Assembly (NCBI RefSeq): GCF_014279775.1
Contig: NZ_CP047961.1
Span: 310,001-374,000, forward strand
DNA from: Synechococcus sp. PROS-9-1
GTDB lineage: Bacteria; Cyanobacteriota; Cyanobacteriia; PCC-6307; Cyanobiaceae
Direction: 5' to 3'
DNA: 64,000 nt
Shown: positions 49,727-53,655 of the stretch, piece after piece
How positions within the stretch are numbered: position 1 is the first letter of the stretch
Layout of the letters: every line of letters starts with the position of its first letter
Notes under the pieces: generated by a model
What the model was told of the DNA's origin: nothing
The model's input: the letters and a program-made list of their open reading frames with translations, nothing else
The model's database searches: none
Translations under genes and position numbers: made by a program

Positions 49727-51007
49727 TCATGCCGCTGCGGCAGGACGTCTAGGTGGACAGGCCTTTAGGGGGCGACGGTAATGAGTTCGTGGCGTTCTGT
49801 TGGGCGCTGCAATGGTGTTTCGTTGCTGGCCTGCTTCGGTGAGGTCTGCTTGTAAGCGCTCGGTGCAGCACAGCAACCTCGACCAGCTCGGCAGCTGATG
49901 GGCCACAGGCGCCACCATCAATTCCTCCACTTTGGGACGCAACAAGGTGGCGAAGCTTTGGACCGCAAGCTCCTCGCTGTGTCGGTTGTATGGCAGACGA
50001 TTGATGGTTGAATCCAAGCCAAACTGCTGAACACGGTCTTCCCCGACCCGTCGGAACAGCACTTCAAGGGTTGGGATCTGGTCTGCAGACAACATCCGAC
50101 CTTCATGCTCCATGAGCCCACGAAGCACCGTGGCAAAAATTTCACCGGCCATGCGTTGCAAGCCTTCGGAAGGAGCATTGCCAAGTGTTTTGTGCTTGTG
50201 ATCAAACAGTCCAAGATCCACTTGGGCGATGCGTCGAGGAGCTACATGGCGATACACCTCTGAAAGCAAACCGATCTCGAGTCCCCAGTCGGAGGGAATG
50301 CGCAAATTCATGGCCAGATCTCTGGTGAACGCGAACTCGCCGGCTAACGGGTAGCGGAAGGATTGGAGATAGCGCAGATATGGCATCGGGCCAAAGATCT
50401 GCTCCAGGCTGGTGAGGAGTGGACCTACGAAAAGGCGAGTTGCTCTGCCATGGAGAGTTTGGGTCTCGAGCGAAAGGCGGCTGTAGAACGCTTTCACGTA
50501 GGCCACACCGAGCGAGGGATCCAGCAACGGTCGCAGCATTCTTTGGGGGTAGGCCGGTGAAAAGGTGCGGATGTCGGCATCGAAGAGTCCAACGATCTCC
50601 GCGTTTCTGCAAGCCACACCAAGCCCTTGCCAAACAGCCCAGCCTTTGCCAGGTGGTCCGGTCACGTTGAGGCCGAGGGTCTGAAGTGACTGCAGTGATT
50701 CGGCAACGGCAGGACCATTCGTCCAGTGCACGCGCACAGGGAATGGCATGTCAGAAAAGAATGCTTCCGCTGCAGCGACGTCGTCGCTGTTATCTGCGGA
50801 TAGTGCGATCACGAGTTCTTCTAGGCCGCTTAGTTCTGACAGAACCTCACGGATCAGTCCGAGCGCAGGACGGCTGAATTCCTCCATCAGGCAAGGGATC
50901 AACAAGGATGTTGGCCGTTGACTGAGCTGACGGCGAAAGTCTGGGAGATCCAGTTTCCCGAGGCCATAGTCGTGAATCGTGGCGATTAATCCCTGCTGAA
51001 AATCCAT
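49727..51007 (-). CDS. gpgS: Glucosyl-3-phosphoglycerate synthase
   Basis: About 426 residues, GT81-like glycosyltransferase that joins glucose from an NDP-sugar to 3-phosphoglycerate. Seen: TSLLIPCLMEEFSRPAL (near residue 36), a donor-metal motif GLFDADIRTFSP (near residue 145), and YPLAGEFAFTRDLAMNLRIPSDWGLEIGLLSE (acceptor region, quoted in parts: GEFAFTRDLAMN, SDWGLEIGLL). ATG 51007 (MDFQQGLIATIHDYG) is chosen. Divergent from the phosphorylase-like and gpgP genes, which complete the glucosylglycerate cycle; synthesis rises under salt or nitrogen stress in marine relatives. Confidence 0.9.
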   Translation of the reverse strand: MDFQQGLIATIHDYGLGKLDLPDFRRQLSQRPTSLLIPCLMEEFSRPALGLIREVLSELSGLEELVIALSADNSDDVAAAEAFFSDMPFPVRVHWTNGPAVAESLQSLQTLGLNVTGPPGKGWAVWQGLGVACRNAEIVGLFDADIRTFSPAYPQRMLRPLLDPSLGVAYVKAFYSRLSLETQTLHGRATRLFVGPLLTSLEQIFGPMPYLRYLQSFRYPLAGEFAFTRDLAMNLRIPSDWGLEIGLLSEVYRHVAPRRIAQVDLGLFDHKHKTLGNAPSEGLQRMAGEIFATVLRGLMEHEGRMLSADQIPTLEVLFRRVGEDRVQQFGLDSTINRLPYNRHSEELAVQSFATLLRPKVEELMVAPVAHQLPSWSRLLCCTERLQADLTEAGQQRNTIAAPNRTPRTHYRRPLKACPPRRPAAAA

Positions 51008-51071
51008 GCGGTGATCAATGCGACAACAAGTTGTGGAGCTCTGTTCCATACCATTTGCAATTGGCAAAGGC

Positions 51072-51299
51072 ATGGTGTCGAAGCAGTTAATGGCGCATGA
51101 GTGGTTGCCATCGCTTCTGACGGAGCTCTATGAACACCATTCTTCTGAGGATCTCAATCGCTTGTCGTCGCAATTGCTGCATTCCGAGCGGTCTAGGTCA
51201 GAGAGGCCGTTTCAGAGTCGCTTGATCCTGGGTCTGCAGACGCAAGGACAGATGCAACGGCAAAGGGTGCGCGTTGGGATTCCTCGAGTTGTGTGTTGA
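51072..51299 (+). pseudogene. N-terminal part of the GH13 phosphorylase in a different frame
   Basis: ATG 51072 (or 51018/51090) opens a frame reading MVSKQLMAHEWLPSLLTELYE and HHSSEDLNRLSSQLLHSERS, a helical stretch like the N-terminal extension of glucosylglycerate-phosphorylase-type GH13 proteins. It ends in TGA at 51297-51299 in frame 3, while the enzyme body continues in frame 2 from upstream (KGARWDSSSCVLIAYADTV before the GTG at 51293). One added base near 51262-51268 would join the two. Confidence 0.55.
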
Positions 51300-52849
51300 T
51301 TGCCTACGCCGATACGGTGAGTGCCCATGATCAGCCGGGGCTCCGTTGTTTGCAGGCCCTACTGCACGAGCATTTCAGCGGTCTCTCAGCGGTTGTGCAT
51401 GTTTTGCCCTTCTTGCGCGCAACCAGTGATGGAGGGTTTGCCGTTGCCAGTCATGAAGAGATTGCCCAACGCTTTGGTGATTGGAATGATTTAGCCGCGT
51501 TGGCGGAAGGTCGCCAGTTGATGGCTGATTTGGTCCTCAATCACATTTCAGCGTCTCACCCCTGGGTTCGGGCTTTTCAGAAGGGAGAGCAACCTGGAGC
51601 GCAATGTGTGTTGGCTGCTGCTCCCAACCCTTGTTGGGACAAGGTGGTGCGTCCACGTAGTTCCGCTCTCTTCACCACTCTGGCGACAGATCGGGGGCCA
51701 GAAACGGTCTGGACCACGTTTGGGCCCGATCAAGTGGATGTGAACTGGCGAGAGCCTGAGGTGTTGCTGGGATTCACACGCCTGCTCGATCTTTTTTGCA
51801 GTTATGGCGTCCAATGGTTGCGTCTGGATGCCGTGGGGTTTGTTTGGAAGCAGCCCTTTAGTGACTGCATCCATCAGCCTCAGGCCCACCGGTTGGTGGA
51901 AGTGTTGCGCCTTCTCTTGGAATCGCGATGTCCTCAGGGAGTGGTGGTAACGGAAACGAATGTTCCCGAGCAGGAAAATCTGTCTTATTTGACCACTGGT
52001 TCAGAAGCGCACCTCGCCTATAATTTTCCCTTGCCTCCGCTTGTCCTCGAGGCCTGTCTCAGTCGTCGTGCTGATCTGCTGAACGACTGGCTAGCGCGTT
52101 GGCCTCAGCTCCCACAACAGACAGGGCTGCTCAATTTCACGGCCTGTCACGACGGGATTGGTTTGCGGCCACTTGAAGGTTTGATGGAATCCGATCGATT
52201 GCTTCAGTTGCTGCAGCAATGCGAGCAGCGGGGTGGTTTGGTGAGTCACCGGCGCTTGGCCGATGGACTGGAGGTTCCCTATGAGATCAACATCAGTTGG
52301 TGGAGTGCCATGGCGGCTCCAGGGCGGGATCCATCACACCATCAACGCGCGCGTTTTTTGTTGACGCAGTTGCTGCTGTTGACGTTGCCCGGTGTGCCTG
52401 CGTTCTACCTGCCGGCATTACTGGCAACTCCGAATGACAATGCTCGCTTTCGCATTAGCGGTCATCGGCGCGATCTCAACCGTCCTCAGTTTCAACTCGA
52501 CCGTTTAGAGCGATTATTGGCGGATCTCGAAAGCGATACCAGTCAGGTGGTGGCGGCACTGCAACAAGCGATGGCTGTCCGTCGTGGCCAGGCGGCGTTA
52601 GATCCCTTTGCCCCGATGACGGTCCTGAGTCAAGGCCGCTCTGATGTGGTGATTTTGCGGAGGGGGGAAGGGGCAAGCACTCTGTTTGCGATTCACAATT
52701 TCAGTGATGTCCGCCTCAGTTTCCCCTTGAGCACCCTGGCTGATTCCTCAGGATCTGTTTGGCATGACGTGTTGACCGGGCATTCTTTCGTTGCGGGCCA
52801 AACGGCTCTCGACCTTGAGCCATTTGCTGTGCATTGGTTGATTCGATGA
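51293..52849 (+). CDS. GH13 subfamily 18 phosphorylase (sucrose/glucosylglycerate phosphorylase-like)
   Basis: 518 residues as read from GTG 51293. The (beta/alpha)8 barrel is complete: first strand LIAYADTVSAHD, LMADLVLNHIS, nucleophile RLDAVGFVW (near residue 180), acid/base in VVVTETNVPEQE (near 222) and third acid in FTACHDGIGLRP (near 286). Retaining phosphorylases of this subfamily cut sucrose or glucosylglycerate with phosphate. Beside gpgS and gpgP, glucosylglycerate is the likelier substrate. It is probably not the true start: see the frameshifted N-terminal fragment. Overlaps gpgP (ATGA). Confidence 0.82.
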   Translation: MLIAYADTVSAHDQPGLRCLQALLHEHFSGLSAVVHVLPFLRATSDGGFAVASHEEIAQRFGDWNDLAALAEGRQLMADLVLNHISASHPWVRAFQKGEQPGAQCVLAAAPNPCWDKVVRPRSSALFTTLATDRGPETVWTTFGPDQVDVNWREPEVLLGFTRLLDLFCSYGVQWLRLDAVGFVWKQPFSDCIHQPQAHRLVEVLRLLLESRCPQGVVVTETNVPEQENLSYLTTGSEAHLAYNFPLPPLVLEACLSRRADLLNDWLARWPQLPQQTGLLNFTACHDGIGLRPLEGLMESDRLLQLLQQCEQRGGLVSHRRLADGLEVPYEINISWWSAMAAPGRDPSHHQRARFLLTQLLLLTLPGVPAFYLPALLATPNDNARFRISGHRRDLNRPQFQLDRLERLLADLESDTSQVVAALQQAMAVRRGQAALDPFAPMTVLSQGRSDVVILRRGEGASTLFAIHNFSDVRLSFPLSTLADSSGSVWHDVLTGHSFVAGQTALDLEPFAVHWLIR

Positions 52850-53655
52850 ACAAAACAGATTCTCTGAACTCAATCCCCTGGTGGGTCGTGACCGATCTCG
52901 ATGGGACCCTGATGGACCATGCCTACAACTGGGAGCCGGCACGGGAGGCGATCCGTGGCTTGCAGTTGCAGGGAATTCCCGTGATCCCGTGTACGAGCAA
53001 AACGGCGGAGGAGGTGAAAAGTTTTAGGGCTGCAGCTGGGTTGAAGGATCCGTTCATCGTTGAAAACGGAGGGGCTATTCATGGGCAAACCAGTGATGGC
53101 GAGCCATGGGAGCTTGCGCTGGGATGCCCTGTGGCCGAGCTTCGTCCGGTTCTGCGAGAGCTTGCGCAGTTGCTTGGTGAGCCGTTGCAACCCATTGATG
53201 CGCTCTCGGATCAAGAGGCGTTGGAATTTCTTGGTCTGCAGGGCGAAGCGCTGCAGCTGGCTTGTCAGAGGCGTTGGAGTTTGCCCTTTGTGCCCCCTTC
53301 TGCGTCAGCGCGGCAACGCTTGCCAGATCTCGCCAATCGGCTTGGTTTCGCTGTCGTTCAGGGCAACCGTATGGGTCACCTGCTCGGCGCAGAGGTCAGC
53401 AAGGGTCGAGCCCTTGAGGTTTTAAAGCAGCGCAGTGGTGGCTCTCCAGTGCGGGTGCTCGCACTGGGTGACTCTCCCAATGACCAGCCCCTCCTAGAGG
53501 CTGGTGATCTCTCTGTTGTTGTGCCTGGTGCGAATGGCCCCCACCCGGTCTTTGCTGAAGCCATTGCTCAAGGCCGCTACCAGTTGGCGCCTGCTTGCCA
53601 TGCGCAGGGCTGGGCAGAGGCGGTCTTTCAGCACGTTCTCAACGCACAGTGCTGA
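52846..53655 (+). CDS. gpgP: Glucosyl-3-phosphoglycerate phosphatase (HAD, MPGP family)
   Basis: About 269 residues from ATG 52846, overlapping the GH13 stop. HAD motif I is VVTDLDGTLMDH; motif II PCTSKTAEEV; late VLALGDSPNDQPLLE. Belongs to the mannosyl/glucosyl-3-phosphoglycerate phosphatase family, removing phosphate from the GpgS product to give glucosylglycerate. Context with gpgS makes the glucosyl reading likely. The upstream frame to 52834 is a longer alternative. Confidence 0.88.
   Translation: MNKTDSLNSIPWWVVTDLDGTLMDHAYNWEPAREAIRGLQLQGIPVIPCTSKTAEEVKSFRAAAGLKDPFIVENGGAIHGQTSDGEPWELALGCPVAELRPVLRELAQLLGEPLQPIDALSDQEALEFLGLQGEALQLACQRRWSLPFVPPSASARQRLPDLANRLGFAVVQGNRMGHLLGAEVSKGRALEVLKQRSGGSPVRVLALGDSPNDQPLLEAGDLSVVVPGANGPHPVFAEAIAQGRYQLAPACHAQGWAEAVFQHVLNAQC

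Follow-up and report, generated by a model that had tools for sequence, protein, structure and literature searches.

A gene for a probable 2-O-glucosylglycerate phosphorylase is split by a frameshift in the stretch of DNA analysed here (64,000 nucleotides, hereafter the window). With moderate confidence, we propose that in this strain a base has been lost, at about 51204/51205, from a gene that forms a single reading frame in its relatives, and that the catalytic core is perhaps still made by translational restart. The split is best read as a commonplace mutation of this strain or an error in the sequence rather than as a programmed switch. The window covers bases 310001-374000 of a single-contig genome of 2.27 Mb, which is of the marine Synechococcus type by its named relatives and has a G+C content of 54.95% over 400 kb, compared with the 53.9% published for the complete PROS-9-1 genome. 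A DnaN-like ORF, recognised by eye, begins at base 174, and the PROS-9-1 project likewise numbered its sequences from 174 bp before dnaN.

Organization of the locus

The features discussed below are the following (window coordinates):

49727-51007, minus strand: gpgS, probable glucosyl-3-phosphoglycerate synthase, divergent, matching NF040724
51090-51299, plus strand: ORF A, the N-terminal piece, 69 codons plus stop from the conserved ATG at 51090
51197-51299, plus strand: region of about 100 bases in which ORF A and ORF B are both open, ORF B being the -1 frame
51204-51205, plus strand: site of the base loss, located to within a few bases (about 51199-51207)
51237-51248, plus strand: 12-base in-frame insertion resembling a tandem duplication, private to the window (0 of the seven closest relatives)
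51293-52849, plus strand: ORF B, catalytic body of the probable glucosylglycerate phosphorylase, 518 codons from GTG 51293
52846-53655, plus strand: gpgP-type phosphatase, NF001217 at 426.7 bits, above the cut-off of 373

The two frames are as given in the preliminary description, with a stop ending at 51299 and the body one frame back, and the sequence as given does contain the break. The possible ATG starts of ORF A are at 51018, 51072 and 51090, and its single stop is TGA 51297-51299; ORF A follows the frame of the relatives only to about 51204 and then runs as an out-of-frame tail to that stop. ORF B lies in the -1 frame relative to ORF A, is open from 51197, after TAG 51194-51196, and ends at TGA 52847-52849, while TTG 51296 in its frame overlaps the ORF A stop as TTGA. 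The match of gpgS to NF040724 (E 2.9e-112, 375.5 bits) is under the curated cut-off of 700. The gpgP start codon overlaps the ORF B stop as ATGA (52846-52849), and by coordinates the same overlap of gpgP and phosphorylase occurs in seven close relatives, to which this comparison was confined, the gpgP matches of other clades beginning later in the protein. A promoter or terminator was looked for near the junction of ORF A and ORF B and none was found. A search of the window genome with ORF B gave no second intact copy of the phosphorylase, the sole other match being a distant GH13 protein (E 5.8e-15).

Position and nature of the lesion

In an alignment of eight sequences, the window and its seven closest relatives (82-93% DNA identity to the window in the body), a one-base gap falls between 51204 and 51205 in the window row alone, bearing out the earlier claim that one base is missing relative to homologues. 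The preliminary description had placed the loss in CAAAGGG at 51261-51267, some 60 bases downstream of this gap; since frame B is already the open frame of the relatives from 51206 on (AVSES...), that heptamer is not the lesion site. Its start at 51072 also has to be moved, as this codon is ACG in three of the seven close relatives and hence not conserved, whereas ATG 51090 is common to all seven.

The 12-base insertion at 51237-51248 is identical at 9 of 12 bases to the adjoining 51249-51260. In all, 511 bases of the window correspond to 500 in each of the seven closest relatives, that is, 12 extra minus 1 lost. Both the base loss and the nearby duplication are shown by this alignment to be private to the window genome among its close relatives.

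Intact homologues

ORF B was searched against 99 genomes, the window's own included, with E below 1e-100 as the threshold for orthologues, and 46 were found, again counting the window's own. At 550 codons the open frame of the window is the shortest of all; those of the remaining 45 span 575-894 codons and have no internal stops. A second collection contributed 29 loci. Upstream frames were read in 57 loci including our own (L002), leaving out L001, a copy of our own locus, and L057 and L058, where the start of the gene is absent. One locus, L059 from Campylobacterales, failed the core motif used; all 55 other non-own loci have at least 56 open in-frame codons upstream of VLI. Because nine occur in both collections, these loci amount to 46 distinct sequences, which come from the genus and family of the window, Synechococcus and Prochlorococcus being among those named. 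The extension has conserved columns (L9, L10, S27, L29 and W59). Upstream in-frame codons were thus present in all loci read besides our own, and therefore the family gene is one frame; homologues beginning at LIAYADTV with no extension, which would have spoken against a frameshift, were found in none of the 46 distinct sequences.

Among the 29 genus genomes with the phosphorylase, the break at this place occurs in the window's alone. In a more distant cyanobacterium of the class (G086:C335:29143-30134), the homologue consists of two overlapping parts that lie in different frames, a possible frame break situated in the body and not at the window's junction. Separately, the homologue in the single-cell genome AG-670-F04 (L048:2600-2640) retains the N-terminal portion but is matched only over query residues 1-419, its frame closing at 2632, a shortening that is either a real truncation or an assembly join.

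Selection on the two pieces and genome-wide frequency of breaks

The dN/dS of the body is 0.071-0.110 in the seven pairs that include the window, compared with 0.070-0.150 in the 21 pairs among the relatives, which indicates that the body is under purifying selection, as in the relatives. Its private codon changes (14 synonymous and 5 nonsynonymous) are likewise inside the range of the others, which runs from 20 and 3 to 9 and 13, with 88 and 37 in the most distant, L009. Normal evolution of the body fits a recent loss, a core that is still used, or an error. For the N-terminal piece we counted 28 synonymous and 21 nonsynonymous codon differences over 37 codons, summed over seven non-independent pairs, which points to weak constraint.

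Frameshift-like breaks were equally frequent over 400 kb in the window genome (8 of 272 ORFs) and, in the reverse test, in a neighbour genome (8 of 271). In-frame stops were found in 24 of 272 and 19 of 271 ORFs, respectively, counts that use mechanical ORFs and include antisense and other doubtful ones. An error-rich assembly is thus not supported. Of the other seven frameshift-like cases in the window genome, five are overhangs that precede GTG or TTG starts and do not exceed 33 codons, and two are pieces of doubtful coding; nonsynonymous differences equal or exceed synonymous ones in five of the six that could be counted. By the same count, the short piece of the phosphorylase taken whole, with its out-of-frame tail, has 7 synonymous and 17 nonsynonymous differences. 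What sets the phosphorylase apart is the comparison with further genomes, which covers the phosphorylase only of the eight cases.

Elsewhere in the genome, the phycocyanin beta subunit (G000:C1:473151-473612, L147) has N at residue 42, where the relatives L145 and L141 have S. Residue 42 of RpcB has been linked in print to thermal niche, in a source sentence that contradicts itself.

Structural context of the break

An AlphaFold2 model of an intact relative, L054, built from an alignment of 23 sequences (pLDDT 85.8, pTM 0.89), has helices at residues 2-13 and 19-41, with pLDDT block means of 78-89 for residues 1-30, pLDDT under 50 at 34-55 and the first barrel strand at 65-69. By our count the lost base falls at about residue 39, in the low-confidence stretch, and the ORF B start at residue 65. 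In the model, the base loss and the duplication are both shown to sit in the variable linker that joins two N-terminal helices to the GH13 barrel. Alignments of the listed solved GH13_18 phosphorylases begin at model residue 54-58, and those of the listed amylosucrases and sucrose hydrolases at residue 1, N-terminal helices included; phosphorylases that match from window residue 1-3 begin their match at chain residue 7-24. These alignment starts suggest that the protein from GTG 51293 would be a nearly complete phosphorylase fold, minus the helix pair, so that the shorter product proposed in the preliminary description is possible, with a core spanning nearly the whole solved fold.

Origin of the split

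The strongest competitor of a strain-private deletion is a sequencing or assembly error, in which the gene is whole in the strain and the consensus sequence omits a base; we give it substantial weight but consider it rather less probable than a real loss. It is favoured by a break private to 1 of 29 genus genomes with the phosphorylase, by a body without relaxed selection, by the longer open frames of the 45 other orthologues and by the slightly higher frequency of in-frame stops in the window genome, and short reads may have been hard to assemble across the 12-base duplication nearby. Illumina sequencing seldom produces isolated indels away from homopolymers, and the overlap of ORF A and ORF B, the site of the loss included, has no homopolymer of 4 or more. 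The genome project, according to the accessible text of PMC7522525, drew on two centres, one using Illumina and the other 250-base shotgun reads, with manual finishing. These read types and the finishing, together with the lack of a homopolymer, make an isolated indel error less likely, and the window genome shows no excess of frameshift-like breaks over the neighbour genome. Of the three origins offered earlier (error, real mutation leaving a shorter enzyme, or programmed shifting), the last finds no support and mutation is favoured, without being fully separable from error.

It is also conceivable, but unlikely, that the deletion is real and tolerated in a more specific sense, stop and restart at TTGA giving a phosphorylase in two pieces, one helical with 69 residues and the other the core of 518. 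If so, an enzyme of a family that normally bears an amylosucrase-like N-terminal helix pair would work, or have altered properties, with that part not covalently attached.

Programmed -1 ribosomal frameshifting, which would fuse the two ORFs to give the enzyme at full length, is suggested by the -1 overlap of the frames, some 100 bases long, but we regard it as very improbable. As had been noted before, no slippery heptamer is found in the right phase, the only XXXYYYZ in the overlap, AAAGGGT at 51262, being in the other phase. The RNA fold of 51200-51330 is weaker than the shuffle mean (z = +1.12, in a model without pseudoknots), 177 of 200 shuffles folding at least as well, and none of the 46 distinct homologues is split at this place. 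Slippery-site scan, fold and conservation together speak against this mechanism.

Least probable of all is an ancestral short form, with the upstream piece lying outside the gene: solved sucrose phosphorylases do start near the LIAYAD equivalent, but the alignment of homologues refutes the idea, with an in-frame extension bearing conserved columns in 46 of 46 distinct sequences and a shorter in-frame upstream part even in the Campylobacterales locus L059.

Predicted consequences of the proposed strain-private deletion

If one base was indeed lost in this strain, the change is probably recent, because the body shows no decay. Ribosomes starting at ATG 51090 would stop at 51299. A stop/start overlap of the TTGA type can allow restart, and some ribosomes may restart at GTG 51293 or TTG 51296; by eye, no strong ribosome-binding site was seen before GTG 51293. 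Judging from the model, restart would yield a core of 518 residues, possibly active, that covers almost all of the sucrose phosphorylase fold. Since the ORF B stop overlaps the gpgP start, restart might also keep gpgP translationally coupled.

An annotation pipeline would call an enzyme of 518 residues here, though the family gene is longer and probably encodes a glucosylglycerate phosphorylase. The enzyme is a likely outlet for the osmolyte glucosylglycerate. A real deletion would make this strain a natural test of the need of the enzyme for its N-terminal helices, and also of the dependence of gpgP on phosphorylase translation.

Identity of the enzyme and comparison with known systems

The gene is a probable 2-O-glucosylglycerate phosphorylase (GGaP, EC 2.4.1.352, GH13_18), a name given because of motifs and neighbours, the activity being a prediction. 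GGaPs are marked by a TETN motif and by a Glu in loop A, where most other clades have Gln, according to the accessible text of PMC7178133. TETN is present in the window protein (VVVTETNVPEQEN) and invariant in 23 of 23 aligned relatives, as is the Glu of its YEIN, E395. In the alignment of L059, this Glu faces the Q of 7qqj, 7qqi and 7xdq (YEIN versus YQIN, YQVN and YQLT), and we infer that its column is the loop A position of PMC7178133. The gene context agrees with this name, gpgS and gpgP flanking the phosphorylase. The best NCBIfam match is TIGR03852, sucrose phosphorylase, at 130 bits, below its cut-off of 334.4, and there is no GGaP model among the six NCBIfam matches listed. Pfam recognises domains of the alpha-amylase and amylosucrase-C-like types in ORF B; ORF A yields no match above cut-off.

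Within the genus, 29 of 31 genomes carry the phosphorylase, 28 carry gpgS and 29 carry gpgP. One genome (G001, 99% complete) lacks gpgS, phosphorylase and gpgP, the whole glucosylglycerate cluster. All three genes are also missing from G005 (58% complete), and gpgS only from G029 (85%).

In strain WH8102, SYNW2435 is in an operon with gpgP (SYNW2434) and adjoins gpgS (SYNW2436), as stated in the accessible text of PMC2874817, and from this place SYNW2435 appears to be the counterpart of the window phosphorylase. A gpgS-gmgG-gpgG cluster of marine Synechococcus is named in the accessible text of PMC7522525. Neither account, in those portions, mentions a split copy. A title-level literature search, of a design not meant to prove absence, gave nothing on a split phosphorylase, and none of the papers it gave on frameshifts or pseudogenes in marine Synechococcus treats this phosphorylase, by title.

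The nearest solved structures by sequence are amylosucrases and sucrose hydrolases (for example 3czk, 7esh, 1g5a and 2wpg), with 2wpg at E 7.9e-43, and the nearest by Foldseek belongs to the same group (3ucq, TMq 0.86); against the L054 model, 3czk, 7esh and 1g5a reach Z 36.9-37.9. The N-terminal part of these enzymes is included in the alignment, and that of the window gene consists of two helices, which are missing from ORF B alone. The highest Z (42.9) belongs to the GH13_18 enzyme 6s9v, a sucrose 6F-phosphate phosphorylase with the same barrel, which is also shared by 1r7a, 7qqi and 7znp of GH13_18 (Z 37.2-38.6), whose chains start at most 10 residues from the ORF B start. The listed solved GH13_18 phosphorylases are without the two N-terminal helices of the window family, and 7qqj, 7qqi and 7xdq have PEIH or PEVH where the window family has TETN. 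The gene thus resembles GGaP in TETN, in the Glu of YEIN and in its gpgS and gpgP neighbours, and differs in being split by a lost base.
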